A stretch of DNA of 64,000 bases from Trissonchulus latispiculum (taxonomy: Eukaryota; Nematoda; Enoplea; Enoplida; Ironidae), in NCBI GenBank assembly GCA_030248195.1, contig JASAND010021214.1:1-64000 (forward strand). The letters run 5' to 3'. Positions 7,795 through 60,100 of the stretch are shown here, in pieces; position 1 is the stretch's first letter; each line of letters starts with the position of its first letter. The notes below the pieces were generated by a model. That model was not told the DNA's origin. It was given only the letters and a program-made list of their open reading frames with translations, and made no database searches. Made by a program: the position numbers and the translations under genes.

Positions 7795-7985
7795 TAAAGA
7801 TCCCCGTTAGGCCCGACCCGGCCCGGCCCGTAAAAATTTCACCTCGGCCCATCCCGACCCGGCCCGTTTGATAACTTTCGACTTCGGCCCGGCCCGCCCC
7901 TGCCCGCCCCTGCCCGCTCCAACTTAAGCCGGGCCCGGTCCGGCCCGTAAGCTCAAACATTAGGCCCGGCCCGGCCGTTAGCCAA
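7795..7985. repeat. GGCCCG-motif-rich block, copy 1
   Basis: The block consists largely of CGGCCCG and CGACCCGGCCCG words separated by short AT-rich spacers. A related block in the same orientation lies at 8437-8575, and both share a TATCAAA/TGATAAC-like spacer before CTTCGGCCCGGCCC. Confidence 0.8.
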
Positions 7986-8436
7986 AACAAAAATAAGGGT
8001 TTAAAATGCATACAATTTTATTCATCATCGCAAATACCATTTTTAAGCGATGTCTCGTAGCTCATGTTTATTTTGAGCGACTGAGAACAGTCAGCGGTTC
8101 ATCTTAGGAAAGAATTCACTGACTGACCAGTTTCGTTGATTCAATATACCTTGCAATTAATTAGGCATAAGGTATACTCTCCAAATATTACAAATAAATT
8201 AAATTAAGAACTTTATAAATAATAAATTTCAGATGCTACTGCACAAATTCTAGCTAAAGATTACGTTATATAAACGCAATTGAGACAAGTGCATACACCA
8301 GTAAACTCGGAAAGAGAAGGAAAATCAAGTATCGTAATAGAAAAGCAATGATTATTCAAAATTATATTTGGAAAAGAATAAAATTTCCAACATAACCTGC
8401 CGAAACTAGAAACAAGACAAAACCTTCTAATGAAAA

Positions 8437-8575
8437 TGCCCGGCCCGGCCAGAAGCCCGGCCTGTTCCAGTACTCGGCCCGACCCGGCCCGCTATCAAAT
8501 TTGTCGTACCTCGGCCCGGCCCACCCGTTTCACCGTATGCCCGGCCGCGGGCCGGGCCAGGCTTACGGGCCTGAG
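8437..8575. repeat. GGCCCG-motif-rich block, copy 2
   Basis: Same motif content and orientation as 7795-7985. The pair may mark the two ends of one repeat with an AT-rich core between them. Confidence 0.75.
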
Positions 8576-9105
8576 TGAAGGTCTCTGGCTCAAGTGTAAC
8601 TTGGGAGCTTCACTCAGGCAAGGATTCATTGAGTTGAGACATTGAGCTCGTCTTTGATGAATAACTCTTCGCAATAACGTGACACCAAAAATTGTAGATC
8701 TTGTAACATTTCTTTCGAAGCTCCTAGGAACCTAGTAAATAATTACTCATATGTTGAGCTGAGTTGATGAAGTACAATTCAAAATTGTATGTAGTTGTAA
8801 CAATCTTGAAAGACAAATTGTTTCATTACCGGAATGTTTCTGATTTTCATAAAATTCTTGAAAATGGCCAAATTTTGCAAACTATAGGAAGCGTTGAATT
8901 CAAAATTATAGCACAATTACTTTTAATTCGTATTCATATTACATTTATTTCATGAATGTACAATCCTAACTTACTTTCCAGGAAACTGTCCTCTCAAAAC
9001 TTTTTGTGCCAGCCCACACACCCAATCGTATGCCTACTAAGTACTGAATATTTTTTCTTAGTTTAAAAAGATTGGTTGGTTCCTTGTAAAAGGCTTGTTT
9101 AGGTT

Positions 9106-15000: not shown

Positions 15001-18000
15001 GACAAGGTGAGGATGGCATGAAATTGAGTTTACTGCCTATACTAGATGGGGATGTCTTGTAAAAGATTTGACTAAGTGGGAAGAACTGAAAAAGAGTTGA
15101 CTAAGTGGGGACAGCCTAATTATAGGGTTTAGAGTTGACTAACTGGGGAATTGTCAAACTGGGAATTGGCAATTGGGGATACGCCGTATTAGGAACCCTG
15201 TCAAAAATAAAATCGTGTAAACGATTTATTTTACACTAATTCCAACCGTTTTCGTACAGAATTACGCGAATTCTACACGTTTCTTTTTACGCCTTGTTTT
15301 TGTTATGATCTTTTTAGGTTCCGTCTGCAAATAGTTTGTGCTAAGTTTATCGTGCTTATGCGAATACATGGAAAAGTTAAGCACATGGTTTTTTGGTGTG
15401 CACTAGTAAAACAGTGGCTTAAGGCTTAGCAACAAAAAGTTCAAATCAGACGACATCAAAACAAGCCGATTACACGATTCTTGCACGAATAAGATCGTGT
15501 AAAAGAATCGTGTACACGATAGATTTTTAGCATAATTTTGACACGGTTCCTTAGTGATGTGATGTCAATAACTTTTACACTAGTGCACATAGTGTGAAAA
15601 ATGTAGAAGCAATTGAAAAGTGAAAATTAAAAGTGAAGGGGGACAACCATGTATTAGTAGGGATCAAGTGATTGCAATTTGAATAACAGGCAAAAACGAG
15701 GATACACGTTATCACCAAAGCAACAATTCTTTGAGTTTTAATGGGGTGCATATTTGAAAACTGATCTTATAGAGAAGTAGTCTTTTACTAATTTAGAAAA
15801 AGTGGCTTTTTGGTATTTTAGTAAAGGTGGTATTCCAGGGAAGTGAAAGTTGAAGATTCCATCCTGAAAAAATTCCAAGCTTCTGGCGCAAGGTAGCATG
15901 TCTTCTACAGTATACCTTATTCACGCGTAAAAATATTGGCGATGTAGTGTAATAAATTGCATCTGCATATAAAATAGAACTTGTGTCAATACAATGCATA
16001 CTAGGGCTGAGCCTGAATCCAGATGCTATATGATTATGGTTTGGTATTATCACTATGATTTTCTAGAGAAGTTGTGAAAATTGATATTTTTAGTTAGAAT
16101 ATTTTATGAAGAGAAACTTCCATATCTATTCCCAGAAAAAACCTGGGTTTTCCTAAACTTGCATGCATGCACTTTACGTGTGCTATGCATCTATCAAAAG
16201 ATTTTGAGTACACAAACCTAGCAAGATTCCGCAGACACTGGTGGGCTGGGTTTAGGCTTATAAATTTTCCACGGAATAGCACTGTATCGGTCGGAATTTT
16301 GCTGTCTAAGTTTTGCTGTTTTATAATTCCATGGAAAATCTCCGATGAAGCTGGAAACTGGCCAGCCGTGCCCTTAACTATGAATTTTCACACATTTAAT
16401 ACATATAAAACATACTCGTTTTTAATTCGATTTACCGGAATCTAGTCAGTCAGATTTAAGCGATAAAAGATTCCACGGAAATTCTCTCACTTGGCTGGAA
16501 ACCGGTTGTCTGGGTTTTAGCTCAAAAATTTTCCACGGAATGTCGCCAATAAATTTTGGCTACGTCTAATCTGCGGAATCTTGCTAGGTTTGTGTACTCA
16601 AAATCATTTGATAGATGCACTATTTCTAACACATTGAAATAACATCTTTCAATTAAAACATACTATTTCAGTCATAAATGAAGGATAAAATTGTAACACT
16701 TCAATAAAATACGTACAAAGAACGGCATCAGAGAACGTCGAAAAACGGCCAAAATGTAGACTTTCTTCTTTAATCCAGCGAAGTCAGATTAGGTGAGAGA
16801 GTACAAAAGTAGACTTATACATCGAATACATATCGGAAAGAGGATTCAGCAAACTCGGAACAACAAGCAAAGTTAAAATGTTTTAGTGTTTTAGTTTTAA
16901 AATTAGATTTAGAAAAATTAACTATTTAAATTTGCAAAAAAATTTCAATTTTTAGAAAAAATTCTAAGTTTTGCTCGATTTTCCCGAAAAAGTAGACATT
17001 TTAGCTAAAAAATTCCGGCGAGGCCGGAAATTTTTTGAAATTTTAAGTAAACACTAAACTAAATTTTTTGTTACCCCTTGGCCATTTTTTCGTTACATCT
17101 TGTCCCTGACGGCGATAGGGTTTGTACCTTGTCCGGGTGGGGGGGGCTTGGACCCCCCCAGACCCCCCGCGTTAACCTATGGACTGCCGGCTATGTTTAA
17201 TGTTTAATGTTGATTTACTTGCATCTAGAAGGGCAAGAGCAGTTCTTATGCCAGTCGTTTTCAACTTCTGTAACATCCCCTAACGATATCAAACATTTCC
17301 CTGCAAGATAATAATAACATAATAATAATAGTAATAATAGTAATAATAATGGTAATAATAATAATAATAACAGTAACGATACATTAGAACATTAGACATT
17401 GTATGTTGACTAAAATGGATATAATTCCTGATGAATCAGTATGGCGTGCTAAACACAAGAACGATAAAGATAATCGTAAGTAAAGTAGCATTTTGCAACT
17501 GAACAAATAAAGAGGCATAGTTAATTTGCATCAGACTCAACAAACTGATTTGCATTATGCCCCACATTGATTGTAAGGTTTACCCGTTTTCTTCACATTT
17601 GCCATTACAGGTTTACTGAACAATACAAATGCCAACAGCAAAGCTGAACTGATACATGTTATGAATATGTACGTACAAAATTCCACAGACGTATCACAGT
17701 TTTGGACTGACGTCTGAAATGATATTTGAGATTTGATTCTACCATCAGAACAGTTGCAGTGCTTCAGTACGTAAGCTTGGTAACAGGACAGCGTACACTT
17801 CTAAATATGCAGCAAGTTATATTTAACCTTCAATTGAGAATATTAAGAAAGTTACTGACCAGTCCTGCCATCTGAGTCAGTTTTGAATCAAAACAAAAAA
17901 CAACGATAACAAATCGAAAAAAACATTTTAGTTCGATGAAAACATTCTATTACTGTTGTTTTATCATTAGCTCTCGAAACTTGATGAGACTTCTGTTAAA

Positions 18001-27000: not shown

Positions 27001-30000
27001 CTCACCGCAAATTTGGATCCCGGTAACCCCCTCCAGTTGATGTCCAGTCAAAACTTTTCGAGTTAGCACACAAGTATGGCCAGGTAAATTTGTTTGATTT
27101 ACTAAGGGCCCAATATACAATGGTGGGAAGGGAAGGTCAGCTGCTAGCGTGCGCAGGATTATATTCTTGATATTAAATCCAATAAGTTACATAAAGCAAG
27201 TGTACATAATACATGAGAGTATGACAAGCGTCATACGCTATGTATTATCACCACGATACATGCTCTGCATGCTGTCGGCTTACGCCCCCCCAACAAATCA
27301 GACCCCCTTATCAAAGCAAATTCTAACGCTATGTTTGCACGCTAAAGCTCGAAAACACAACTAGTCAGTTGGTTTAAAGTGCGTCTGTTTCGTGTAAACA
27401 TAGCATAAACATCGAATTTCTTTGACAGTTCATGGGGGGTCAGCCGATAGCGCACGTGGGATGTAGCGAGCTGATAATACATAGCGTATGACTCTTGTAT
27501 TATGTACTCTTGTGCATAAAGTCAACATTACTTGAGTGGACAATAGGGCTTGTGTGTAGCGACGAATTGGTTTTCTTGGAGGCTGAATGTTCCACCCAAA
27601 GCCAAATTTGCTTCTGTCCCAAAAACCATAAGCATTTTACGCCCAAAAACATCTTCGTTCTCTCTAAAGCCAAGTATAGAGCATGTTTACTTTCATGACT
27701 ATTTGAAAATTCTACATGAGATTTAACTTGAAGGAAATTATCATTTATTTTGACATAAAAACACAACTCGCAATCTGCTGTCAAAGTAGAAGACTGAACA
27801 GTGTAAATAGTGAGCTTCGATAAGTCAATGTCAAGGGGGGCTACGAAATTAAATAAAAGTTCTATGCTGGAAAGCTAGCTAGTCTTTTGCCACATAACAG
27901 TATTAAGCTTGATGCGAAGTAGTTTAAAGTTAGTAAAAATTCCACTCAGCGCAGCGTCCTGTGGAGCCTTCGCAAGTTGGTGTTGGCGGGCACAAACTCG
28001 ACATGGCATGTATACAAACTTCCATCAGCCCAGAAAGCTACCTGCAAGGAACCGTGCCCAAATCTTGCAGAGATAGTCCTGACATATAGTGCTTTGATAT
28101 CGTTAAAATAATCTCTAGACCAAGTATGCTTTTCTGTGCGATACCATCAAAGATTAAAAAATTGAGCGTGGTAGGTCCATACGGGTGGAGGTAACCAATG
28201 TCTTATGGACTGTGGTTAACCAAATAAGCTCAAATTTTCTCCAATTAATACTCCAAGTATCGGTCTCAAGTCATGTGAAAATCTCTCTTTATTTCATTCA
28301 ACCCTGCCTTCGCAGTGCTAGATTATGTTATCGCTATTGTCGCTGTTGCTTGATGGTATTTCGAAGATGAGAGAATTGCTAAAATGTATTTCGCTAGAAT
28401 CTTCTGAAACTTGCAAATCACAAGTCAGTGAGTATACCAACATGTGCAGGAAGTTAGTTCACTAAGCCTCGCTCCAGTGTTTAGAAATGCTGTATTGATT
28501 GCTTGCTTGAAGTATGAGTAACGACCGCTCCAAGAAACTCTAAGACTGTAGTAAGCGTATACTGAACAAAAGAAGCGTCATATCGCAAAGCATATTTTAT
28601 ATTCGGATTCTGCAGGTCAACGAACCCCTACAAGCACTTTTTCGGCAAAATCCGACACACAGAAAATTTTCGACCCCATTTTTACTGCGCTTAGCTATAG
28701 GTTAGTTGTTGACTAAACGTGAGCTAGCACACAAACCGGAAATCCAAATCCTCGAAGCCTAGCAGCAGTTTGCCACTGTTAGAGCCTACTGGTAAAAAAC
28801 TAGGGTAGGCTAGGAGCTGCAAATTTTATTATATCTAAAACGGCCACCTTGCTACTTTTTGCAAAATTTCAAATTTTGACCTGTTGTAGAGTATAGGATA
28901 AACGCGTGAGCTAAGCCTAAGTATACGGTAGATAAGTTCCAACCTAAATTGAAATGTTTCATGAACAATCAATGTAAAATTATCGTTAGCTAATTTCATA
29001 GCTCAATTATGACTCATAGTGATGATCCAGTTCAAAGATGGCGGATCAAGTCAGTTGGTGTCTTGTTGGTCCTGTGGGTAGTCGGTGGGTAGTTAGTAGA
29101 GTTTCTGCCATTTTGTGAGTCCTATTTTAGTTGTATTTTTATACTTTGGCCAAGTTTGGTTTTGAAAACTGTTGTGAACTATTTTGATGTGAGAGTAAAT
29201 AATCTTTGAATCTAGGGATTTTTATCTCATTTCAAGTGAGCGAATATCAAGCCTAATCAATAGACAACTGCAAATTCACTTTATTATTTCTTGGACATCG
29301 CACACCTTTGACAAAAACCTGCAATTAGACGGTCAGTCAATCGTGAATCTAGCACCAGGGTTTTATTCCCTACAAAAGTGGCGACCGTGACAGTGGTAGA
29401 TGTCCAAAAATTATTCTGGACCTATCACTCGTAGTATTACTCGTAATTTACATGAAAAAGTTGTTCTTTTTCACGAACTTCCTCAAAGTGACTTAGAATT
29501 TTATCCTGACGCTTCGGCAGAAGGTTACCGCGCTTACTATATGGACGCTGTGCTTGTTAGGGGGATGATCGAGACAGTCCAGAATTCGGGTGGGTCTGAC
29601 CTGTTATACCCTGTGCGGGGACAGCCGGCGGGGGCAGTGGAGGAGGCCATGCTGCAACAGCCGCAGGCACCTCCAGCTTCTGAGTCGCCTGCTGTTCCCC
29701 CGCAGCCAACGCCTTCTGTTGAGACTGCGAGTGAACGAGCTCAGCTTACTGTTGAGACATCGGCTTTACAAACATCTTCGGGTCAAGAATCTCTGCCCCA
29801 GCCCTCGGTGCTGGTGGCCGAACTGTCGCGCATTTGGTCTCTCCCGGACCAACCGACTCTTTCTACCCAGCAGCCGGGGTGGCGCGAAGTGTTGCGCACA
29901 GCACCACGGCTGGAGGAACCGCTGCCACGGATTGGCAATTATACGGGTGTCGCCCGTCTCTATTTTTCGGATGCTTTTTGGCAGCGTATTCCCCAGGTGG

Positions 30001-33000
30001 AGTCGCCGCATCAGCTTGAACTGCTGACCCAGTATGGGTTTCCGGTGGCTCTCCTGACCCAACGGCTTGGGCGGGGTCCCCCGTGGACCGCCTTTGAGGT
30101 GGCTTTTCAGGTTATGGCTGAAGGGGACATGCAGGTGGTGGACCTTCTGAAGGTGTTGTTTCCGCGGGAGTTTCCTTCTCCGTTTCCGGAGGGGATGGAT
30201 CTCTCCTGGGGTCGGGTTCTCTCGACCCCCGGAGAGGCCGGCTCGGAAGTGCCGCGCCCGTCTCGTTCGGTTTCGGTGGGGGCGGCCCCGTGTGATGCGG
30301 CGCCTTTGGGGGCTCCCCGGCCTGTGCCTCAGCCGAGGACGTCCTCTCGGGTAGCGGCGGCTCAGGGTGAACCCCCAGCGATGGAGGTTCCCCCCTATGT
30401 CCTGCCGACTCCGCCTGCGGTCATTCTCAATGACTCTATTGTTTGGCCTCTCGGCCATATATTGTCGCCCCAATTCAATCAGGTGGTGACTAATTTGACT
30501 GTGGTAGGTCCGGGTTCTGCTGTGAGGGGAAATTTGACTCCAGTGCCGGTGGATTCTGTGGTGACCTTTCCTTCTGATCCTTTCATGGGTCCGTTTAAGG
30601 TTGGTCCTCCTGATCATGGGCCTGGGGGTCGCCGCCATTTCCAAGACGGCATGGACTTGTATCAAATTTTTCCGGGAGAGGACCGTTTTGGTCTCCCAGA
30701 GGACAGGCTGGCCCCGTCGCCCCCGTTTGCGGGCACGCAGACCTTGCCCTCCTACGCGGCGCCGACAATCCAGCGCCTAGTGGATGCTTCACCGACAGCG
30801 GTTCCGTTCCGGCCTTGGTCGGATCGCCACTGGCGGGTGACCCATCTTCCGAATGTGTTGTCGCAGTCGGGTCCGCCGGGGGTAAATCCGTACTGGCGGG
30901 TGACGTATGACTATTGGATGGAGTGGCTCATAGGCCAGTCCGCGCCGTTTGCGGTTCCAGAGACTGTGCTGGATCGCTATTTCCATCAGATCCGCATGTT
31001 ATTTCCTGGTGGTGCTCAGGTTAGTCATGAGCCTATGCCGGCACCTCCGGAGCATGCTGAATTGATTTTTCCACCTGAGAGGGCTGATGCCTGGCAGTGT
31101 ACGATCTCCTTTCCGGCTCTGGCGCGGGACGGGGAAGTGGTTTTTCCTCCGGTTATTCTCGTAGGGACGGGGCCTGTGCAGTCGTTGGCCTCAGTAGCGG
31201 CCATCGCGCAGTTTGTCCCTTTCCTACGGGTTTACCCTTCCCTCATGATGTTCCAGCCCTACAAGGAATCGTTGAAGTACTGGAAGGATAAGTCGGCTCG
31301 CTTCGTGCACCTTGTTCAGTCGGTTATCCAGGACTGCATCCGTCACCCGGCTATGGCCTCGGATGCGGCCATGCGGTACGGAGCAGTCAAGGCCTTCCAG
31401 GGCACGAGTTCGCCGGCTTCCAATATGTACCGGATCGAGACGCTCGATGATGAGGGAAACCCTCAGCCGGAATATTTGGAGATCTGGGGTTTGCTGTTCC
31501 AGGCTTCTGAGCTGGCCTACCAGTTTGCAAAGATTTTTATCTACTTTGGCCTCCTCGAGCCGGGCCGTTACTTGGCTAGTTTGGAGTGCCCCTTCCAGGC
31601 AATGGAAGCGGCGAAACACTATGGGAAGGGGTGGTTTGCCCGAGTGGTTCAATACCGAAATATCTGGGAAGCCCCGGATAATCATATGCGGGCTATGATT
31701 ATGTTGGAGATCCTTCGGGCAAAAGCTCAGGTGTGTAAGCCATTCGTTGAATGGCTCCGCGCTTCGGGTGTTCGTATTTTGGTCGAAGCCACTCCTAACC
31801 GCTATTGGGGGATTGGCAAGTCTGCTCCTGCGGCAGAAAAGATGGGGCCTCATGACTACCCCATGCTGGCTAAGTTGGGTACCACCGAGTACCAAAACTG
31901 GATGGGCAAAGTTCTGATGCTTCTGCGGGCTGAGCTTTTCCCCGATCTGGGTGCTCAGGTTCTGTCATTGTGGGAGTATCGGGAGGAGCAGGATCGGAAT
32001 GCGGCCGCGGAGGCTTATCCCCAGTAAGGGTTGGCGTTGGGGTTTTGTTGTTGTTGGTTATTTTGAAATTCTTTTCTCAAAATTTGATTGAAAAATTTTC
32101 TAAAGTTTGTTTGGTCTTAGAGGAGTATACCCTTGCCCTGATTTTGGTTTTATTTCTTTGTATCTGTGTTGTTTTTCTGCCTAAATTCCTTGTTTTCATT
32201 CTAGATTAAAGTATTCTTTCTTCTTATGAGCTAAACTCTATTTAATTAGTTTTACTTGCAAAATTCTGTTTCATAGTATAAATATCGATCCTTTCTAGAT
32301 TAAATTTGGCCTTCATTTCGGGCTTGTGTTGGCGGACCGATGGTCCGGAAATTTTTGAAATCAGGCTGTTCCGAGGGTATAGTCCTCTAGGGTGTGATAT
32401 TCGGTTCCTGCTGTTCTTCTATTTTCGTGATACTAACCTTTCATATTTCTTTATCTGAGTTTTCCTGACATTTTAAATCTGGAGTACCCGTGGCCGGGCG
32501 GTTCGGCTCCCGGCCTGGAAACCGGCTGGGTGCCTGGATAGCCCTGTTTTCTGGGGCTCCTTTGGGTTCTGCAGTTCCAACGGTATTCTTAATCTCAGAG
32601 TCTTAACCGTAATCCGGTTGTTTTTTTATTGCGGGTTTTATTTTTGACGGATATAGTCGGGACTTGAATTCGGTGCCTTTTGTAGTTTGATTTTTGTTTT
32701 GCTTGCCATATGTTAACCTTTGTATGCTACTTATAGTTTTCTTGTTTGTTCTAGATTTCGTGTATGTGATTGTTGGACCCCCCTGCCCCCCCTGATGGTC
32801 GTGCCGTGGGAGTATCCCCTGGTTCTGGTTCAGAGGAGGCGCGCTTGTTCGCGTGCGCCGGCTGCCTGGTTCGGCTTGTGTTGGTTGCCTGGATTTTCCT
32901 GGCCGGTATGATGTTTGGACTCTGTGGTGGACGGCCTGCGTAATGCCGCGCCTGTTGCCTAGCTTGGTCCTTCTTCACTGTGGTGCCCTTTGCTCTTGTG

Positions 33001-36000
33001 GGGGCTGGTTTCTGGCCCTTCTGCTATTCTTGGCCTGGTGGCCTGGTTCTGCTTTTGGCTGATCTTCGGCCCTGTTTTCTGGACTTTGTGATGGCCCTAT
33101 GGCCTCTGACTTTGGTGCTTGTGATTGGCCCTATTTGCTACTTGGGTCCCTTTGGTCTTCTAGCTGGCCGGCAGCCCGGCTGTATGATTTTGAACCAGTT
33201 GATGTCCTTTCCTCGCACTCCCACGAACACTGAGCTTCTGGTGCTGTGGTGTACTGTATTTTGTTTATTTTTTGATGTTTGGTTGTTTTTTATACGTTCC
33301 ATAACATGGCATTTAATTTTGCAGCTTTTAAAATGATTCTTTAATTTTGTTGGCCCATATATAGTGCCTTATTTTGTTGTACTACATAATCTTCGTGTTT
33401 AGTTTTGCTTTGTTGCATAATAAATCTCTTTGTATGTTTTCTTAGTTAGGATTGTGGTTAGGCTTACTAGATAGGTTGAAATTTTGTGTTATATTGTCCC
33501 TCGTCTTGTGTTGCTCGTTCCGGTGCGGTAATCGTGTCTGTATGTTTGTTGGTTTTGTTGGTCGGGGATCGTTTCCCCCAGTGGGTTGATCGGGGGCAGC
33601 CGATTAGTTTCGTTTAAAAAGGCGCCTAATAGTTGGTAGTGTGCCTGGTGGCACGAAAAGTCTGCCCGGATACGTGGCGGTGTGTCAACGTTTTTAGTTT
33701 TGCTCCTTATAACTCTGTTTTATTCTCTAACATTTCACCTAGGTTGCGCAACCGAAAATTTTAGCATTTAAAATTGGTTTAACCCCTGTACTAATTTCGG
33801 TGGACACGCCGCGCCGGGGCGGGCGGCGGCAAGAGGGGGTATTTTGTAGAGTATAGGATAAACGCGTGAGCTAAGCCTAAGTATACGGTAGATAAGTTCC
33901 AACCTAAATTGAAATGTTTCATGAACAATCAATGTAAAATTATCGTTAGCTAATTTCATAGCTCAATTATGACTCATAGTGATGATCCAGTTCAAAGATG
34001 GCGGATCAAGTCAGTTGGTGTCTTGTTGGTCCTGTGGGTAGTCGGTGGGTAGTTAGTAGAGTTTCTGCCATTTTGTGAGTCCTATTTTAGTTGTATTTTT
34101 ATACTTTGGCCAAGTTTGGTTTTGAAAACTGTTGTGAACTATTTTGATGTGAGAGTAAATAATCTTTGAATCTAGGGATTTTTATCTCATTTCAAGTGAG
34201 CGAATATCAAGCCTAATCAATAGACAACTGCAAATTCACTTTATTATTTCTTGGACATCGCACACCTTTGACAAAAACCTGCAATTAGACGGTCAGTCAA
34301 TCGTGAATCTAGCACCAGGGTTTTATTCCCTACACTGTAATTGCTGAAGAAATGCTCGAAATCCTGAATACTTTTAATATTCAGTATTAGAATCTGTTAA
34401 ACCGTTAATCCATCAGAGCTGAAAAAATCATTTTGAATAAACAAATGTTTGCACCAAACTTTGTACTTTGGCGTCCTGCCAAAAACGGTGCATATGAGAT
34501 ATATTGTTGCCCGCCCTAAACTTTTTACCTTGATATGTTGGCTAACGATGGGTAAAAAAGTATCCAGCTCACACCGACGATGTCGTGCCAACCCGTTCCT
34601 ATCCCCTCCCCCTCCTGAAGTACTTACGCGATGTTCGTCAGAAAATCGACCCACTGCTCAACATCGCTGAAAATCGGTAAATGGGAATGTGGATGCAAAC
34701 TCTGGCATAATGATTCCATCAATTTTGTCGTATTGCAACTAAAACAGCAAAAGAGCGAAGGCTTTCCTCTTTAACTCGCCCAATACTGAGACATCTACTA
34801 GTTGCCAGAACTTTCATCATTCAAAATCGCTGATAAACGACTTCCTTTTCTTGTTGCTACATACGCTATCCCCGAATATACAGATTTAGCAGAACATGGG
34901 TTTTAATTCCGCATTTCAGATACAGATTGAAGACACCACAAGATTCTTTTCATGATTTCATTTTTCATAAACAAAATCGAATTTGTACACAAACAAGTTA
35001 TGTCTACAGCCACGGAATAAGTTTGCATTTTTCTAGCCATTAGGACCAGTAAATAAGCTAAACAAATGGAAAAGCTCGTATTTAGAGTCAGCCAATCTAA
35101 GACATTTAATATACCTTCTATTATATTATGCTCAATGAATATATATTGCTTTTTACATATTCATCGAATATATATGCTATTGAAATAGTCAACAAAACTC
35201 GATTGCAGGAAATAAGACCATCCGTCACCATCATCACTTTTTCGTTATGTAGTCTTGATCATACATTAACATAGGGCCGGGTCCTGGGGGGCTTGTCCCA
35301 GAAAATTTTGAGGGGGCTTGTACCTTGAACTGAAATTTTCGAGGGTTTATACCTCAAGAATAAATTAGTGAAATTTGTCGAAAAGTTAACGCTAATTTTA
35401 TTAAGATTGGAGATTTTTTGAAATTTGCAACAAAATCTTCAATTTTCAAAAGAAATTTCAAAGTTTCAAAGTTCAAAGTTTCAAAGTTATCAAAATATAA
35501 AAATTTTAGTTAAAAGATTCAGGCGAAGCCGAAAATTTTTAATATTTTAGTGTAAAAACTAATCTTTTCCGACCATTTTAGCTTACCCCTTGGCCATTTT
35601 TTCGTAACCCCTTGTCCCCGACGGCGGTAGGACTCGTACCTTGTCCTGGTTGTACCACCCAGACAACCCCGTGCTAACCTATGGTCTTGATGGTACAAAA
35701 AAATTATATTGGACAACATTACTGAAGGTTGTAAATAGGAGGAACTGCATAGCAAGCATTTATCCCTCGACGCCAACCATTTGGACACGCATTTTCTGAA
35801 AAAACTGATTTGATTGAGAACACATTAACCAACTATGGCTATTGCAAGAAAATAACTATATTTATGAAATATATTGGTTAGGAACACATGCTATTCGTGT
35901 GAGGATACAAGTGCTAATTCATCAAGTAGTTAATAAACCATAAGCTTTTCCAATAACTTTTTCAAGAAAGACATATTATGCTTTGGAAATTTGAAGTGCT

Positions 36001-39000
36001 GCCATCTCTGGCCGTATTGCTAATTTTAAGAACAAGCTAATAATAACTACAACACCTGATTTTTCTATTGAAGGATTTACAGTTTTTTTCATTCTTAAGA
36101 TACTTCCATGAAAAAGTAAGGCAAGATTCCACCTGAATTAGTTTGCTCTCACGTTCGCCAGTGAAATGAACAACGACAAAATTATAACGACATAACTACT
36201 ACTAACCTAATTAACCATATATGGGACGCGAATGAAATTATTAAATTACTCCTTTGCAAAACAGTTTTGAAAATTGATCTTATATAATCTTTGTCGCGCT
36301 AAGAGTGCAGGTTCTTAACACTGCATCGATTTTGTTTGGCTTCTTCGAACTTAGCCCAAGAATAACACCTTAGCACCAATAACAAAACAACACACTCATC
36401 ATGTCCCAAATAGTTTTAGTTTCTTTCAAGCATAATATGTTTCATAGCAAAGCCTTGTTTCAGCAAAGCCTTGTTTCAGACCTTATCCGGGTTAAATTCA
36501 GTGAATATTATTTTGATAAACAATTTTTGATCAAACTTTGTGTTTTTTTAATTTTGATTAAATTTTAATCAAACTACCACCAAGAGTACATAATAGAATA
36601 AGAGTATGAAACTCTTACGCTACTATGTATGTACTAAACATGCTTGATATGCTCGGGTCGCTAACTCGGGACCCCCCCCCGAAAGTTTCGGGGGGGTCCC
36701 ACCCTACACTAATTACATGCTTTCATATAAGTGTGTGTCTGCTCGCTGATTCGCTAATTAGCTTAGGCTTACGATAGGCATTTTATTAGTAATTTTTAAT
36801 TAATTAATTATAACTTTAATTAGGTTAATGTAATTAAAAAACTAATTCGACAACTTTGTAGCATTTTTTCTGCTCTTTCCAACGATATAAAAAGTGTTGC
36901 AGAATACATTTCTACGAATTTTTGTTTTGCGCAACAATTTTTATATCATTGGAAGAGCAGAAAAAATGCTACAAAGTTGTCGAATTAGTTTTTTAATTAC
37001 ATTAACCTAATTAAAGTTATAATTAATTAATTAAAAATTACTAATAAAATGCCTATCGTAAGCCTAAGCTAATTAGCGAATCAGCGAGCAGACACACACT
37101 TATATGAAAGCATGTAATTAGTGTAGGGTGGGACCCCCCCGAAACTTTCGGGGGGGGGGTCCCGAGTTAGCGACCCGAGCATATCAAGCATGTTTAGTAC
37201 ATAGTAGCGTAAGAGTTTCATACTCTTATTCTATTATGTACTCTTGCTACCACTGATTCAAGTCAGCGGTAACATTTATTGAGTATAAACCCAAAGGAGT
37301 GTCCACTTCTGTATACAATTTTATTTTCGAGTTGCCCTGAACTTAATTTAAGTTTGTGCTTGCACTCAATTTTACAATAACATAATAAATAACCTCTTGT
37401 TTCATCAACTGCAGATTTCCAGTTAGCTGGCAGGGCAAGACTGTTGAAAGACTCAAATGCAGCAGTTGATAAACGTAAAGCATCTTCGGAAGATAAGCGT
37501 AATATGTTTCTGTACTCTTCAATGGTGTGAACCTAAAATAGGCACAACAGAAAAACGAAGAACTGGGCTGAAAAATCAAAATGAACTAATGGTGCAGACT
37601 AAAGTAAACGTCAATGTAGCTACTATGTTAGGTCTGACTAATATTAGATTGCAATCTATGAAAGCATGAATCATTGTCCTGATTTTTTGGTAGGACAGTC
37701 AGTGGTGTTAATTTAACATAATTAATTCACGTATTTTAATTTTTGGATTACCGGTTTACCAACTCGCTTTAGTTGGCGGCATCCTATTGCACTATGGAAC
37801 TTTTTGAAAAGAAACGTGCTCAACTTTGAAGTTGAGAGTCGAGGTTTAAGGAAATATCGCATAGCTTCATTTCTGAAATGAAACTTTCTATTTCTGAAGT
37901 AGAGTGCATATTTTGTTCCATGAAGCACCACCAGAGCCTAGATTTGTGCCCGAATATTAAAGGAAAACTGTCAATATTTAAAAAAAGGTTACACTTTGTG
38001 CCTCGCGTGGGGCACAGAAATATTTAGTTCCTAACAACAGTTCAAGAATAATTCAGAAGAGGCCAGTTTAGGCACATTTTTTCGACCATCTCCAGTTCTA
38101 TTAATTTTACATATCTTATTGTCTAAGTGAAATATTTTAACGTTTTTATAAAATTGAAGTCGGATTTCCTACGGTTGCAAAGAAAACTCACCTTAAAGCT
38201 GAGGTCTGCATGTGTTAAACATAGGAAATCGAAGAATTGTAGATAACAATTCTGCGTAAAAAAAACCTCGAAACTGGTGTAAGATACCAGATAACATTTG
38301 GTATCATTTTAAACCCCTAATCAAATACTATGTCACTGTGGAATTAGATTTATGAATTTACCTTCAAATGTTTTTAATTAACTTTTGAAGCTAACGAACT
38401 GCCGAAAATCGCTAAATTCTGTCGCTTTTGGTGACCAAAAATAAGGGTCATTAAGTTTGATTACATATTATAAAAAATAAAAGTCTTAATAAAAATTCTA
38501 ATCCTGCAGTGACACACAATATGAATAAACGTTTCAAACGAAACCCAATGTTACAAGGAATTTTTTGCCAGTGTCGAAAATTTGTGGTGAAGATATTAAT
38601 TGTTTCCGCAAAATTGTGATTGTTGATTTTTAGCAAAATAGGCAAAACCAAGCTATGTTGCAAAATTCTGTTTGTTGGATTTTAATATATTTATTCATGC
38701 CATAGGATTGGTTCGTAACATGAATTATGCTGACAGCTATGTCCAGTACTTTTCAACGCACCATTTTGGACACACAAGTTCGAGAATGTCACATTACAGC
38801 GATTTTTCAAATTTTTAAAAATATGTAAATATCATACATCAGTCGAAAATTCTCAGTTTTGGGATGAGTTCTGCTAGGAAACTATGCTCGGAGCTTAATA
38901 ATAAGCTATAATAATAATAAATAAATAAATAAACAATAATAAATAATAATAATAAGCTCGGAAATGTTTCTATTTTAAATTAATTGCTGTTAAACATTTC

Positions 39001-44336: not shown

Positions 44337-47300
44337 CTAAAACACAAAGCCTATTTAATGAAAACAGAGAGCTAGTAATTAATTAGTACACGGCATTTAT
44401 CTGTGTGTCTAACATAAGGTATTTAAGGGCCTTTTCGCCTTTAAGGCCTCAAAAGACTAAAATTGAAAAAATTACTCGTTTAACTCTGGACACGAGTTAA
44501 TATGAACTGTTAACTCTTTTAACCCTGAACGCAAAAAGGATTGAGATTTTCACTCTTTCAACTCGTTTAACTTGCTGCGCGAAAAGATCCTAAGAAATTT
44601 CAGCACCGTTTTCTTCGGTATCAGTTGCTGTGATTTCTCGTACGACCTTCGGCACCGAATTACTGTTCCGAAATTTTCGGTATGCAAAACCGCAGTGCTA
44701 ATCTTACAGGCTTACAGAAGCAAGACTGACGTATGCTGATTTCGCAGTACGGTAAAGGTAACCCCCAGAGTAATTCTCTGACCTTTTCAGGGTCTAGGGT
44801 GCCGGTGCTCATGCACGGATACACAGCCGTAGAGCCAGGAGTGTCACCTCAAATAATGACTGCATTCGTGGAAGGGAGGCTCAAGACATTAGGCCCTACA
44901 CGGACTCTTGTTTCGCAGAACGCATGTGGTAAATGCATTATTTTTAAATCAAACCCAGCCTAGTAGATTTGTCTTCTCGAAGCAACTACGTGGTAGAGAT
45001 TCCGCACTCATTTCTGAACGATTTCTGCCTTAAATTATTTCTTTATTTTTCTAGATTTAGGACTAAACAATTGAAATTAATTTCACAAAATCATTGTTAA
45101 CTGTGTTTCCGATGGTCGTCACAACTTACAGGCAACAGTTGTAATGGCGATTTGAGCCGAATCCTTCCATCGCAAATACTCTTCAATCCAGATACATCCA
45201 GTGAAATCGGTGTTACTCTTCATCCCTTGTGGACAGGTAAAGCAACTAGTCGACTCTGACTCGTTACTAAATTTGCCTAGAACACGCAAATGTTCTGTAT
45301 ACTAGCGCAGAACTGCAGAAGTCAGAACAAAATCCAACCTTATTTGTAGGTTGTTTAGTTAGTCAATTCATTTAAGGTGGTGATTCCTTTTGGGCGCAAA
45401 TTGTTGGTTGGCGACGTAAATCAAGATGAAATGTGACGAAACTTTCCGAAATACGTTCTTTTAGCGTTCTAACACCCTCCGCCCAAACCCGATTCAAAAA
45501 TTCGAGATTTCCGGTCAGGGCGGTTTTTCCCAATTTCTGAAAGTTTGGCAGCAGCTATACAATTATGACTATATGCATTCGAAAGATCTCATTGAGCGTC
45601 ATATTTTTGCTTTTTAAAGCAATGTTCTAGCCTTTCTATACCGTGAGATATAGCCGATTTTCTTGTTTTGGCGTTGAAAACTTGTCATCAAATAATCCAT
45701 CATTTCTTGAACTACACAAGCCGTAAAATCAAACTAAGGGCGTCGATCTGAAGGTCTCACAGGGGCAAATTATCCGACGGATGATCATCTTACAACAGCT
45801 ATCCCGTAGGCTTCTATCATAAAAAATGTAGTTTTTGCAAAAACACGACCAATTTTTTCAAAAGATTGTGTAGCATTCACCACGCAAGCTGGAGTGTTGT
45901 TACTTTACAGATGTGTTTATATACCCAGGGACGTTTTTTTAGTTGCCCGATTACTGCTTTCTAGCTAAAGTAATCGCTTGACAAACTTGTAAAAAAGTAG
46001 GCAAAATACTGGTTACGCACACATTTCAGCTTATTTCTTTATAACGAAGAGCGATTTCACAATAAATGAAAAATCGTCCCCAGCTATTTAATGGAGGTAT
46101 CGAATGATATAAGCGATGTCTCGTGAAAAAATTTACTTGAGTCTGCAAAAAATCTGGAAAATTATATATGTGGTAGCAAAACTGCACTTGTTGGCAAATG
46201 TGCACATTTGCCAGTCATTTTGGACAACCTGCACTTTCTCCAGCTGAAGGCTGGACAAACTGTTCCAGAAAGCGCGCATGTCAAGTTTTGCCAATTTTCA
46301 CTGGCAAAACTGCACCTGTGAGCGTCTCAGACAGTTTTTCCAACTTACCGTTGGCAAAACTGAGGAACGTCTGAAACAACGCTGATTGATGAAACCTTTC
46401 CTTTTAATGTTGCACAAAAATAGGGGTCATGGTTTGTTATCATCTTTAAACGTTTGATAAATTTGACCACTGTTTAATTTCAATTTGTTATTTCTTCATC
46501 TTTTGCCCTTTCTCGATTTATGTTCACCTTCATATATATTCAATTTTAAACATTTGAATTTATTGCGGAATCTGCAATAGTGCATTTTACAGATAAAATC
46601 CATAAAAAAGGACTTAAAAATAACTTAAATGACATATTAAAATTAGCAAACAAGTATTTTTATGAGCAACGCAACCAAACAATATTTTTAAAATTGAAAG
46701 TGAAATTTCAAAACAAAATGAGAAAAAGTAAAGCTGAAGTTGGATGAAACACGGTTTTTTTTGCGTAAAATACTGCGTATTTACGCAGTCGAGCTTAAAA
46801 ATACGCAGTCAAAAACAAAAATACGCACCAAAATACGCAGCCGAAAAATTCGGTAATAGGAATTTCTAGAGTGCTCTAAATTAATTTCTTGAGACAATTT
46901 ACCGTAGTTTGGGCTCTGGCTTCTTCTGGGGGGCTCCGCCCCCCAAACCCCCCGCATATATCTTCGATTCTCCTTCCGTCTACAGTTGATTGTACTTTGT
47001 GCCTAAGCCCACGTTGTACCATGCGATGCTTTTCTTTCTATTTGATTTGATATAGTATATAAATTAAAATCTTATACATGTGTTCAATCAAGGTTAAATG
47101 TTAAATGTTAAACTGTTCAAGGCAAAGAAGTCAAAGTTTTAAGAGCAAATTTACTCCGAAATTTAAAATTTTCTTCAACTTCTGGGGGGCGCAGCCCCCC
47201 AGACCCCCTACGTATATATCTATATTTTTTCGTCACCTATATATTCATTCATACTCTTACAAAACACAGAGAGCACGCAATTTAAACTCGAGCTAAAATT

Positions 47301-50300
47301 CTTAACGTTGTTTAAAACTCTTAAAAACCGCATTAATTCGACGCTAAATACGTTTATAGCTTTTGTAACGTTGAGAAGCGATTTTTGTAATTTTACGCAG
47401 TGGAAATTAAAAATACGCACTCGAAAACAAAAATACGCAAAATTTACGCAGGTCCGATTTTCAAAAAAAAAACCCTGGGATCAAATCAAATTGATCAAAT
47501 AAATAAATTAAAATGGACATTGTCTGTAAAACTTTTACTAACTAACGAAAAAAAAATTGCATTCAATATACTGTTTAAAGTAAATATGAAAGTTGAAAAT
47601 ATGTAAATAAATAAATTTTAAGGATTGTAAATAGTAAATAGAGAAGTAAAGATGAAGAAATACCATGACACCTTTTTTGTGCAACATTAAAAAGGAAGGT
47701 TTCATCCATCAGCGTTTTTCAGACGTTCCTCAGTTTTGCCAACGGTAAGTTGGAAAAACTGTCTGAGACGCTCACAGGTGCAGTTTTTCCAGTGAAAATT
47801 GGCAAAACTTGACATGCGCGCTTTCTGGAACAGTTTGTCCAGCCTTCAGCTGGAGAAAGTGCAGTTTGTCCAAAATGACTGGCAAATGTGCACATTTGCC
47901 AACAAGTGCAGTTTTGCTACCACATATATACTTCTTCTAAAATGTGTTTAAAATATTTTAGAAAAGCAACATTAGTTTCATGTTATGTATTAAAAAGAGA
48001 AAATGTCAAGCTGCATTCTGATATAAAAATGGCTTCTTAACTCCAAGTAATGAATGAGTAATAATGGTGCAAACTTTATGTGACCAAAGGGAATCACCAC
48101 CTTAACTGGCTTTTAGCGTGCTAGGCGTAACAGTTTTAACTAAGGATTTCATTAGTATAGGTTGTTGCACAACATAGAGTGCACTAGCTGATTTACAGGC
48201 ACGCTAAGCGAAACTGCGAGGGGTTGTGATGCACGAGCGAACGAGTGCATTACAAACCCGAGTGTTTCGTGAAATTTTTTGTGGTACGAGGGCGGAGAGA
48301 AGAGGAGCGGAAAAGCGAAGCGAAAGCAAAGCAAAGCGGAAATATTGAACCATGACAATAACTGATGCTCTTTGCCTTAGTAACTGCAGCAGCAGCTCAG
48401 CCTATAGACAGCTAAACTATAAAGTTAACTCTAACCTTGGGGACACTGCTCACAAACCCAGCAGCAGTCAGCACTGGTTAGAATCATGTAGGTTCCAGCC
48501 GGACACTCCTTTTCACACATCGACTTTGGCGGTCCGCCGTGGGGCCAGTAGATTAGATCCTCATCTAGGCCAAGCTCAAATTCCAGCACTGCGTCTTCTG
48601 GGATGACTCCGTGATTTTTCAACTTCAAATGACCTACAGCCATTATGTCGAAACTGCCGTTGAATATTCGACTTGGCTGATAGTTGTAGATCCAAAAGCC
48701 TCTTCGAACGTCGCCGTTGGTGTAGAAAAATCGGGTCTGAAGTTGATATTTAGGTGGGACCAGCAGCCCTAATCCATGAATTTTCTCCAACAACGCTTCC
48801 CCTGCTTCACCGTCCGTATAGCCGAGACAAACTCCGATGAAAACGACTGCATCAGTTACAGCTGCAGCATCGAAAATTCCGGCTAACAATTCGCTGCGTA
48901 CCAGCCATTGCTCTGGGTCCGAGCGAGTCTGCAGAAATTCGTAAAGCCACGGATTTTTCAGTCGAATTTCGGTCTCCGTTAAACTATTTAGGTATTTCCT
49001 AAATTTGGAAGGATAGTCAAAATCCGGCATCAAAGCCAGCAATCCGGGTGGATAGATTTCCGGTTCGTCCAGATTTAGGTCGTGACTAAATCCGTCGGGT
49101 AGAATCCAAATCTTCCTGTCGATAATTTCATCTAATCCAAGTTGTCTGCCGATCTAAAATGAAGCAATTTAGTACATTTCTTGGGAAAAATTGAAAACAC
49201 AGTAATTACACTAATTAATAGTTGCCACTAATCATTTCATTCTTCGAGCGTCCCACTTAATGGGATATTTATGATATCGATTCCTTGTTGCTTGCACTGC
49301 TCTAGACGTCTACTGAGCATCGAGAATCCCAGCTATGGGTTTTAGCAAGTCACTAAATATTCAGTTATGGATGTAGTAGAATTTGAAACAGGAATTATCA
49401 CTGCAGCACCTATAATTTGCAATATTCGAACCTGCGGTGACGGGCTCAAACCCACAACCTTCGGTTTAGTACACCGACAATCTAATCTAACAGCCAGCCC
49501 CAGCTGAAGTTCTAAATTCGTATCCAAACTGCAGTGAATTCTTGAAATTTTATTCACTTTCAAAAGCTTCTATTTAAAGTATATACCCTTACTCTGAAAA
49601 ATCGTTTCATTTGAGCATTGCTGCTGACTAGGATGGCAACCTCAGCGCGATCAGTCCTGTACTCTGCATCAACCAGTTCATACAAAGTTTGGTTAACTTC
49701 CCCTTCCGGGATATCCAACGAAATGACACTTTCTGTTGCCAGACAGATTCCTTCTGCGTGAAATGTTTCTCGAATTTCGTGAAGAACTAAAAAAAAACAT
49801 ACCGAAATGAGTTACCGCCGATAAAAATTATGGTCCTCAAAGCAACACTACCGTATTTAATTTATATCTAGTACAATTGTACTGCACGGTACTCGTGCTC
49901 AAAGCCTTTTACAATACTCAGAACTCAAGCTTTCCTCAAAGCTCCTGTGGAAGTATGCAGCGAGGCTGGACGCAGTCAAAAGAACTCACTGCAGGAAGTT
50001 CTCGCCCTTGTACACTTTCTGCAGACATGAATATGCAAATTAGGTAGAGTAGCATATAAACAACTGAAAAACAAAAAATATATATCTGTGAAAGGTTGAA
50101 ATCAGGATCTGAAAGATGTGAAGAAAAGTGTCCAGGGCGGGGATCGAACCGCCGAGCTTTGGATCTTGAGCAGAACGCTCTACCACTGAGCCACATCCCC
50201 GGACAAGAAGACAAGATAATGACACTGATTTCAACCATTCTGGGTTGCTGATATTTTAACGTATCAGTCTTAAGACATGACATGCAAAAGGGCGACACGG

Positions 50301-57100: not shown

Positions 57101-60100
57101 AAATGTTATAAGCTTCAAGAAGTTGAGTATATAACTGTAGATCTGTTTTTACGAAAGCCAAATTGAGCAGAAATTAAAATATGATTAGCCTCCAAAAGGC
57201 TTGTTAATGCATCAGCCACAACTGATTATTATTTTCAAATGAATTTTTCGACGATTTTTTTTATGAATTGGAAGAACTTTGGTAACTTCCATTCCTTCGG
57301 CAATTGAGATGATTCCATTGATTTATGAAAGAGAATTGAAAAAGGCTTAGGTAATTTTTAATTTCTTTTAAATTAATTTAAAGGTAATTTCTTCGAACCT
57401 TTTCATGAAAGAGCCTTTTCACGTTAAATTTAAATTTAAATTCATATTTCAATTTAACTCGATTGAATGTGTTAAATAAGTTAAATTTAACTCAGCAAGT
57501 TAAGCAGAGCTGAAATTTTAATTCTGTGGCAATTCGCAAGAGTTAAAAATTACCTATGCTAGATGAAAAGCCTATTTAACAACATTTCATGTTAGGTTTC
57601 TGATAATTATGTTTACGGTACATAGCTACATCTGTCATCACTAATCATACTCTCAAGAGTTTAGACGAATTCCAGCAATCATTTCATTCAGATGACGCAA
57701 TAGGAGAAAAGCCTACCGTAATCCCTTCAGAAATTCCACTTTCTAAGAGTGACTCATTCTATGTCCTTCTGTTTCAGCCCTCGCTAGGACCATGAGGAAT
57801 ATTGCCTCCAGCTCACTATAACAACTTGTGCTTGTGCTTGTGCTTGTGCTTGTGCTTGTGCTTCATTTCGCCATGATAGAATTTGGCTGGACACTCAACC
57901 TAATTTGCATATTTGCTCCGGGAATTTACAGCCTGGCGCCTCCGGTCAGCTGTCACGGGCCAGTGCCGAAAATTCTGGAAGGCGAATACTTTTTTCATGA
58001 CAACGAAACCTATCAGCTGAGAGTTGCAACCAGTCTAAAGTTGCAACTGGATCTACACCACCAGTCCTGCTTTCAGATTGACATAGAGCCAACTCCAAAC
58101 GCAACTTCCCCGATTTCGGTTTCCTCCCTATTCTATGCGGTTCGCTACGACTCATTCGCCCAGCATTTTCCGGTTCGGAAAAGTTACGAATTCGGAATTC
58201 CGGAATTTCAGTCCTACTGTCGCTGTGACTGTCCGGGCGGGGAAAACTTCTGTACTTATAGTTATGATCAAAAAATGTGCTCTAAGGGTGAAGTGTGTGT
58301 CACAAAATATTATGCAAACCAGAACAGCAACGGTTGTGTGAAGGAAGGGCCGGCCAGTCTCTGTTGCGATATTGCCGTTCGACCATATGAAAATCGACGA
58401 TTTACAGCCGTCAATTTCGGCATACCGACACCGGAGGTGACAATTTCTATTTCGATTTACGCTCTCTACGACGAGAAGTGGCAGGAATTTCGAAAGTATG
58501 TTCGAAAAATTTTGCCCTTCAAGGGAAACTATCTACACCTGAACGGTTACGACAATTTCGTGGAAATGTACGTTTTCGCGGAATCGAAACAAGCCCGATT
58601 CATGCTTCTGAATATCGGTCACGAATACTACTATTTCGAAAATAAACCTCAACTGAGAAACGGAGATGAACTGGAACTGCTGTCGGAACCTAGACTGAAC
58701 AGTTTGCACGAATTCGACGTGAATAAGTACGGATGGCTCCGCTACTCCCAGGGTGTCTGGGAAGTACCGGAACCCCTCCTCACGCTCTACGAGGCTCATA
58801 AACCGATCGTGAAGGACTGCAAGGCCCAGTCCTATCACGATCGCTATGAGATCAATCCTCAGGTCAAGGTGATCCGGAATGCCAGCGGTGCCGTCAACCA
58901 GTCGCCATTCCTGGGTCACCTTGTGACTGAGCTGCATCAGGAGTACATCGGTTCGCTGTGGCTGACGCGTGCTGACAGCCGGACCGATGCTGCGCCTGAT
59001 GCAACTGCCGGACACAGCACGATGGGCGTCACCGTGCTGCATCGCAGCGCCAGCGCACCCACCGTGAAACTGGACATGTCCCTGCATCAGAAGATCAGCA
59101 TCGTCTCCCATCTGCACGCCAGCTACCTGGAGACCTTTGAGGCCGCCATTCGGCTGGACAAGCACCGGGCCCGGTTCCTGAACCTTACTCTGGTCCATTC
59201 CTACGGGGAGTTTCTCATAGAGCTGTTTCAGGACGGAGCGGCCAAAAAGATGGACCTAATCATGTCCGTGGTCAAAAATCTGCCCTTCGCCAAAAACTAT
59301 ACCGAATTCCTGCCCCTGCCCGCCTACATTTCGACCGGCCGGCTGGTCTGCGTTCGGCCGGCCTATCATAAGGTCCGGGCCAAGCCGGGTCGCCAGTGCC
59401 GATGGGCCGACTTTGAGAGTGAGCCCGTGCTCACTTTCCAACTGAAACGGAGCTTCATAGAAACCGAGGGCACTTGCCCTGGGTGTAACCTGGAAACGGG
59501 TGAGGAGGCCGGGGGGTTCTGGAACCGCCTGAACCCCCGAAACTGGTTTAAGGGTGTCAACAGTGTTGCAGAGGGGGCGGCCCTCCTGGTAGAGTTGGGC
59601 ATCTATGCCCTACTTGCCCTGGGGGCAATCATCGTTTTCAGGAAACTGGTCTATCCCCTACTTAGGTGGGGTCTGACGGCCAGTCCCTCCAGTACCCCCT
59701 GTAAGGGCAGCTGCACCGCCACTGAACCTAAGTATCAGAAATGTGAAAAATGCGATGCCTAAATAACGAATGAAAGAAAGTTGCGTACCACCAAAAACCC
59801 TGAAAAATCGAAAAAGGGCGAGGAATTGAAATTGAAATTTCTACAGTTGGAAGTCTAAGAAGCTGGAAGTGAAGCAAACATGCTGGTAAATTTGTAAACT
59901 TTTCAGGCGGTAACTAATACATTGTACTGGTAACAATTAATGGTAATTGTCAACTATGTGGTAGTCAGGAAACGCCGGTATCTGTATTATGTTGTTGCAT
60001 TGGATATGTAACATAAGCATTTTTCAATGTGTCATCTGATCACTTTAATTTAATATGACACTCAATAAACGCCATAGCAGTTATCTGAGGTGTTCTACAA

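Follow-up and report, generated by a model that had tools for sequence, protein, structure and literature searches.

Why would a long terminal repeat (LTR) retrotransposon give over its only large open reading frame (ORF) to a protein that ends in a NADAR domain? The question is raised by the element at positions 28885-34334 of a 64,000-nucleotide stretch of contig JASAND010021214.1 from the nematode Trissonchulus latispiculum (we call this whole stretch the window). A first-pass annotation of this DNA had pictured an element in which the NADAR ORF stands in place of pol. The explanation that best accounts for our results as a whole, to which we give a rough probability of 0.6, is a different one. 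The window element would be a deleted copy from a lineage of giant, NADAR-bearing Ty3/Gypsy elements, and the NADAR protein would serve the element, putatively by cleaving ADP-ribosyl bonds.

The element has the parts expected of an LTR retrotransposon, with paired LTRs, a target-site duplication (TSD), a stretch resembling a primer-binding site (PBS) and a purine tract (Table 1). The two LTRs match at 490/490 positions. The PBS-like stretch begins with TGG and lies in a leader that is 94-100% identical across the scored copies matching it, while the purine tract, AAGAGGGGG, terminates 5 nt short of the 3' LTR; both are recognized by position and sequence only, and ARAGORN found no tRNA in the window. 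A 15-nt PBS-like string was also found at 80 places in viral contigs, of which 4 have a nearby preceding ACA and none an upstream repeated 20-mer, and we attribute these occurrences to chance. The 875-codon ORF is far beyond chance length, because 500 simulated sequences of equal composition (first-order Markov), read in all six frames, had no open frame above 332 codons. Pfam gave no pol match in residues 1-558, 1-200 or 341-644 of the ORF, and the sole match of the whole-ORF scan besides NADAR is at chance level (E 0.046); this profile search covered the ORF, and the 3' stretch (32028-33844) was judged by ORF length, with a maximum of 118 aa. The first-pass annotation had described the paired 490-bp LTRs, the CTGT duplication, the PBS, the purine tract, the single large ORF and the absence of pol from this copy, and its description holds for all of them.

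The NADAR signature that it had read in the ORF, with PF08719 proposed as a check, is borne out by that profile, which matches residues 672-846 (E 2.1e-7). The score for the ORF, 31.8 bits, is under the curated cut-off of 35.1, and that for the excised domain, 36.4 bits, is above it. NCBIfam TIGR02464 (E 9.5e-7) and PHROG 1017 (E 2.1e-8) also match the ORF. The former describes a riboflavin-intermediate N-glycosidase, and the ORF (29.2 bits) and the domain (33.7 bits) both stay below its equivalog cut-off of 73.7. Comparison by hhalign with a YbiA-like profile, built from 113 proteins of suitable length out of 120 listed of the 5,894 NADAR proteins found, gave a probability of 95.3% over 60 columns. 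The same profile used with hmmsearch gave a weaker result, 10.4 bits for the ORF against 3.2 for the best of 1,000 shuffles. Searches with the sequence itself were less informative. No NADAR was found by phmmer of the whole ORF against PDB, and the C-terminal piece matched the NADAR structure 8BAU weakly, only at E 1.3. Protein database searches gave nothing at E <= 0.001 with the ORF (8,000 candidates sharing most words) or with its C-terminal part (280 candidates), nor did a scan of viral contigs using the ORF give a match. Since Pfam, NCBIfam and PHROGs agree while the YbiA-like profile gives a score of 10.4 bits, above all shuffles, the predicted domain is best described as a true but divergent NADAR.

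Where does this ORF come from? The draft genome (733.8 Mb in 21,732 contigs) was searched with it; of 1,454 candidates, 52 were scored, and these gave 56 match rows. The window-type subfamily is represented by 13 rows, that of the window among them, with 93-100% identity across 844 residues or more, and a second one (the 43% subfamily) by 14 rows at 42-43% identity. None of these 27 rows has an internal stop, 19 of them lie in open frames of 1,351-1,651 residues, and the window row is the only one of the 56 that starts ahead of ORF residue 22. Window positions 29375-29502 are identical at 125/128 positions to a leader, L132, in another contig (C9016, positions 494-621), and from 29500 onwards the window is identical at 185/200 positions to a central part of the long ORF in C9016. 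The two matches overlap by 3 nt at the joint, and about 12.3 kb are missing from the window copy relative to C9016. The 875-aa ORF is an in-frame fusion between about 34 leader codons and the last ~841 codons of a ~1,600-aa ORF. When a 266-base query laid over the joint was searched in the genome (40 places scored of 127 candidates), the junction was contiguous at the window only, and the other 39 places matched within bases 1-128 or 126-266. Taken together, these comparisons between copies show the window element as an internally deleted, pol-less member of a giant (~17.8 kb) Ty3/Gypsy lineage in this genome. Coordinates in the contigs C8188, C17848 and C1817 suggest further, different deletions. 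Because its LTRs are identical, the window copy may have inserted recently. The simplest account would be that the deletion arose from a template jump at the 3 nt during reverse transcription and that the deleted copy was then inserted by proteins supplied in trans.

The layout of the longer kin was obtained from stretches of 8.8-10 kb fetched around 12 copies, with ORF listings for 11 of them (all except L128). In 7 window-type stretches, an integrase is followed by a 203-aa ORF, an ORF of 124 to 129 aa and the long ORF, the integrase being truncated at the edge of the stretch in L122, L126 and others. In 4 stretches of the 43% subfamily, ORFs of 136 and 165 aa (one cut) precede the long ORF and the integrase is visible in 2. 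Pfam matches to integrase were obtained for L123 and L124 (rve 4e-12 and 5.5e-11, plus the p58 C-terminal domain), and matches to the NADAR that closes the long ORF for L121 (E 5.1e-7) and L124 (E 1.9e-8); the small ORFs tested gave no noteworthy Pfam match. A search for the LTR in the same genome (40 places scored of 395 candidates) found LTRs of C9016 at 1-493 and 17296-17782. A 300-base piece between them encodes the start of a reverse transcriptase (RT) (RVT_1 2.8e-9), with the Ty3 RT as its best PDB match (8.2e-24). Since this LTR pair encloses a Ty3-like RT, C9016 can be read as a Ty3/Gypsy element of ~17.8 kb. Its RT piece lies from 6002 and its integrase at 7822-8685; the order, RT before integrase, and the Ty3-like RT place the kin among the Ty3/Gypsy elements (Metaviridae), an assignment that the pol-less window copy takes from its kin. 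The order leader, integrase, ORF and LTR recurs on contig C14536. The T-rich stretch behind the long ORF is kept too, with T at 39-41% and A at about 15% in 4/4 checked copies from both subfamilies and with 68-99% identity within the aligning parts. These copies show a predicted layout of LTR, leader frame, RT, integrase, two small ORFs, ~1,600-aa ORF ending in NADAR, T-rich 1.8 kb and LTR. A Pfam search for gag found no match in the pieces that it covered (L215 and the leader frame of L132), which leave out most of the DNA from leader to RT. In a weak check for an Env-like protein by hydropathy, one copy has 3 windows at Kyte-Doolittle values of at least 1.6 and a further copy has none. Since the kin carry pol upstream and the deletion was found only at the window, the idea of a NADAR ORF in place of pol is wrong for the family: RT and integrase precede the ORF there. 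Two same-strand LTR pairs of the family, about 4.1 kb long and with the leader present (C16631 10521-14598 and C11601 33797-37897), have no row in the ORF search and are perhaps another kind of short derivative.

The association of the ORF with pol can be followed on more contigs. The integrase search (135 rows scored of 5,643 candidates) and the ORF search have 20 contigs in common, and integrase and NADAR ORF are on the same strand in all 20. The gap from the integrase to ORF residue 32 is 4,220-4,275 bp in 10/13 window-type contigs and 4,123-4,143 bp in 6/7 contigs of the 43% subfamily. The ten constant gaps include that of C21460, where only a short piece of the ORF matches, at 64%, and a second integrase row of C9016 (70%, opposite strand, outside the element) was excluded from the count. 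These numbers cover the two subfamilies; the integrase search also returned many integrases at 69-76% identity. Between the subfamilies, the integrases are 80-82% identical, and the long ORFs 42-43%, with 105/217 residues in the NADAR region. Because two subfamilies with integrases 80-82% identical have the ORF at the same place, we judge the NADAR ORF to be old within this lineage. Whether the ORF was captured or ancestral was to be settled, in the first-pass annotation, by looking for full-length relatives with pol. Such relatives were found and speak for an old ORF, although not for one in place of pol.

Is the long ORF kept for what it encodes? Ratios of nonsynonymous to synonymous changes (dN/dS, omega) were computed by the Nei-Gojobori method for 13 pairs chosen of many possible, 11 of them within a subfamily, the pairs with the window entering in its two regions only. 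Omega is at most 0.2 in 34/38 within-subfamily pair-and-region counts. It is 0-0.07 for the NADAR region in 10/11 pairs, 0.07-0.18 for the part preceding it in 10/11 pairs, 0.06-0.30 for the middle of the ORF in 8 pairs and 0-0.10 for residues 106-396 in 8/8 pairs. By these ratios, purifying selection acts on the long ORF inside each subfamily, and the ORF is kept for its product. We conclude that it serves the element, because its place and strand are kept in two subfamilies and such selection is seen in both.

The residues of the pocket allow a more specific proposal. According to the available part of the source, ADP-ribose is held in the P. nicotianae NADAR by a Glu and, seven residues further, a Lys, together with two Trp, an Arg and a water-bridged Asp (PMC11543638). 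The same part reports for the E. coli C7 NADAR that the Lys is required for guanine-ADPr hydrolysis, that changing the Glu to Gln inactivates the enzyme while changing it to Ala has a minor effect in vitro, that Glu and Lys are both required in cells, and that the Glu which the superfamily has in its last strand does not act as the working residue (PMC11543638). Mutating the homologous Glu, Asp and Trp abolished the function of the nematode SNA-3, as given in the accessible text (PMC9303266). In the element, the Glu, the Lys seven residues on, Trp, Arg/Lys, the last-strand Glu, Trp, Asn and Arg are conserved in 13/13 copies, the window included. This makes 8/9 checked positions in 9 window-type copies and 9/9 in 4 copies of the 43% subfamily. 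The remaining position is the Asp ahead of YW (three before the Trp), where the 43% subfamily (4 copies) keeps Asp and 9/9 window-type copies have Asn. The markers of the NADAR/YbiA superfamily (the ADP-ribose-site Glu and Lys, the last-strand Glu and YWG) are present, with the Asp lacking in the window type. Catalysis is plausible on this basis, and less sure for the window type because its Asp is Asn.

What could such a protein do for the element? Anything beyond a conserved gene with a conserved pocket is what we infer from the comparisons above. In the reading that we favour, the kin would produce the NADAR protein beside Gag-Pol, and its domain would bind ADP-ribose and cleave N-glycosidic ADP-ribosyl bonds. 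An ADP-ribose mark would thereby be taken off the RNA, the complementary DNA (cDNA) or the proteins of the element, which could be a counter to host ADP-ribosylation or a form of nucleic-acid repair. One version of this proposal, which we put forward tentatively as a possibility short of an even chance, is that the accessory protein of this lineage erases ADP-ribose placed by the host on element RNA, cDNA or proteins. It would then be a counter-defence against restriction based on ADP-ribosylation, and the fast divergence between the subfamilies could be its trace.

Retroelements with NADAR domains include Tx1 elements, which are long interspersed nuclear elements (LINEs) and as such non-LTR retrotransposons. 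Within the accessible parts of the sources cited in this paragraph, a close parallel in structure is an Ectocarpus Gypsy lineage (e.g., Gypsy-12_Ec32), where a Ty3/Gypsy LTR element has a YbiA-family NADAR, of unclear role, at the N terminus of Pol (PMC12477816). The nematode lineage differs from that of the brown alga in that its NADAR closes an ORF of its own, of ~1,600 aa, placed after the integrase and before the 3' LTR, and in that the genome is that of an animal. Crassostrea gigas Tx1 elements also provide a retrotransposon-encoded NADAR in an animal, but theirs sits in the LINE ORF1 protein (PMC12477816). The closest functional parallel is a giant Gypsy of the orchid Phalaenopsis, with an extra ORF for an eraser of a nucleic-acid modification, an AlkB-like demethylase of N6-methyladenosine (m6A) that is unrelated to NADAR and active in vitro (PMC9289625). 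This enzyme shows that a giant Gypsy is able to keep an eraser of a nucleic-acid mark. Conserved extra ORFs between pol and 3' LTR are also described from plant elements, but those named there are ENV-like and antisense, with no NADAR among them (PMC7264820). NADARs of nidoviruses and other RNA viruses are virus-borne as well, and have been proposed to act on ADP-ribosyl moieties, but they are embedded in polyproteins and do not belong to a retroelement (PMC9503650). The papers listed in our literature search, whose scope excluded subscription papers and Repbase, showed no LTR element of an animal in which a NADAR ORF follows pol. A NADAR in a Gypsy element was thus already known from a brown alga, and its place in an ORF after pol of an animal LTR element appears to be new. 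The nematode lineage shows that a NADAR ORF can follow pol in a giant Gypsy, ahead of the 3' LTR, besides the Pol fusion of the alga. The role of NADAR in eukaryotes, animals included, has been called unclear (PMC11125620). A retroelement that keeps one under strong selection would offer a natural test case, with an enzyme, a candidate substrate (its own RNA or cDNA) and copies lacking it.

Several results weigh against the interpretation proposed here and should be kept in mind. A window-like LTR lies downstream in 7/12 fetched stretches, none of them from the 43% subfamily, whose 4 fetched copies match only the final 39 nt ahead of the window's LTR (92.5% identity). The LTRs of C9016 are just 91% identical to one another, and its 5' LTR begins at base 1 of the contig, so that the left flank and TSD are outside it. 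The gap between integrase and ORF is shorter on 4/20 contigs, and these look deleted. The long ORF diverges far more between subfamilies than the integrase does. For this we offer no explanation; fast divergence or exchange between lineages could both be involved, despite the low omega within subfamilies. Some ratios are less clear-cut: the remaining NADAR pair has an omega of 0.205 on five changes, the window and its nearest kin, L120, give 0.43 on 11 changes in the part preceding the NADAR, and the values between subfamilies are 0.24-0.45 at a dS above 1.4, which is saturated and unreliable. The Asp that is replaced by Asn in the window type has a homologue in SNA-3 that was among the key residues chosen for mutation. 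Finally, the conserved residues would not by themselves prove catalysis, because the effect of Glu-to-Ala in the C7 NADAR is minor in vitro and its last-strand Glu is not the working residue.

Other explanations differ on the origin of the window copy and of its ORF. In the earlier picture, the element would belong to a separate non-autonomous family, with the 875-aa fusion protein itself as the working gene that replaces pol. An uninterrupted ORF, joined in frame, and identical LTRs are in its favour, but the junction was found once among 40 scored places, an in-frame result has a one-in-three chance, kin have the integrase upstream and the coordinates of C8188, C17848 and C1817 hint at other, different deletions, which together make such a family very improbable. 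A draft genome in 21,732 contigs could also have produced the deletion as an assembly artefact. We give little credence to this, as the joint has a 3-nt overlap between coding parts without mutual likeness and sits between matching TSDs. The very many NADAR sequences of the genome (150 scored of 2,478 candidates) would have offered ample material for the recent capture of a host gene by a retroelement, in the manner of retroviral transduction. That history is highly doubtful, since the ORF is at the same place in two subfamilies with ORFs 42-43% identical, and since both share insertions in the domain that are missing, by eye, from three aligned NADARs of different types (L082, L086, L089).

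The function leaves more room for disagreement. The main rival to an ADP-ribosyl-cleaving protein is a NADAR fold kept without catalysis, which would serve the particle or an accessory protein as a module for binding nucleic acids or nucleotides. It would fit the Asn in place of Asp in 9/9 window-type copies, the additional insertions in the domain and the low family profile scores. We consider it rather unlikely, because 8/9 checked positions are conserved, 9/9 in 4 copies of the other subfamily, and because the omega of the domain is very low. It is also conceivable that the long ORF of the kin has a 3'-5' exonuclease-like domain before the NADAR and acts as a nucleic-acid quality-control factor; the N-terminal part concerned is absent from the window copy. 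A WDLE motif and a D before RRL are conserved, by eye, in both subfamilies, the low omega given above for residues 106-396 falls there, and hhalign found the N terminus of the L089 type co-linear over 160 columns with an RNase D profile (11 sequences, of which six come from plasmid records, 4 from a set of 80 loci and one from E. coli). Yet the probability was 2.9% for the L089 type, 0.2-0.4% for profiles including the window type and 0.1% against E. coli RNase D alone. Reversed controls scored 12.3, 15.7 and 18.0 against 16.5, 21.9 and 14.8 for the queries, so that one control beats its own query, a profile that includes the window type, neither Pfam nor the PDB profile search found such a domain, and the candidate third acidic residue near its end is Gly in L122. 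The exonuclease reading of the N terminus of the full-length ORF is unsupported for the window type by Pfam, PDB profile and hhalign, and we regard it as improbable.

Table 1. Parts of the LTR element in the window
Feature	Position	Strand	Basis or remark
TSD CTGT, left copy	28881..28884		sequence reading
5' LTR, 490 bp, TGT...ACA	28885..29374	+	identical to 3' LTR; LTR search of own genome
PBS-like stretch, TGG start, 4 nt past 5' LTR	29379..29396	+	position and sequence only
875-aa fusion ORF, 875 codons	29400..32027	+	~34 leader codons and last ~841 codons of kin ORF
First 34 codons, from kin leader frame just behind 5' LTR	29400..29502	+	leader match to L132
Deletion junction, 3 nt TTT common to both sides	29500..29502	+	junction search
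NADAR domain, residues 672-846	31413..31937	+	PF08719
T-rich stretch, T 40%, A 16%, longest listed ORF 118 aa	32028..33830	+	composition; kept in kin
Purine tract AAGAGGGGG plus 5 nt ahead of 3' LTR	33831..33844	+	position and sequence only
3' LTR	33845..34334	+	identical to 5' LTR; LTR search
TSD CTGT, right copy	34335..34338		sequence reading

NADAR domains occur in at least two other settings in this genome. The 2,478 first-look candidates are very many for an animal; all 150 that were scored are listed above the Pfam cut-off, and 8 of these were examined as loci. Six of them (L082-L087) show, by eye, the same series of ORFs, a DNA-virus-like cluster that we take to be Maverick/Polinton-like from its looks. 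It comprises a Pox_A32 packaging-ATPase frame (tested in L082 and L083), a NADAR ORF of ~175-182 aa (tested in L082, L083 and L086) and a TBP-like ORF (L083:1916-2440, TBP 5.7e-37). In L088 and L089, an ORF of ~690-700 aa has a C-terminal NADAR (2.5e-41 in L089), and in L089 a protein-kinase frame (Pkinase 4.2e-18) lies downstream of it.

Elsewhere in the window, a 644-codon frame at 57828-59762, apparently intronless, encodes an EFF-AFF cell fusogen (E 7.6e-86), with EFF-1A as its best PDB match (2.4e-42), and another frame encodes a class C receptor (7tm_3, 1.1e-25); both frames are in keeping with an animal genome. Tandem-like arrays with periods of ~159 and ~148 bp are found at 1851-3487 and 4308-5631. 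Two long inverted repeats, one of 206 nt (100% identity, 75 nt apart) at 36672-37158 and one of 217 nt (99%, 1,340 nt apart) at 46160-47933, are perhaps foldback elements or resemble miniature inverted-repeat transposable elements (MITEs).

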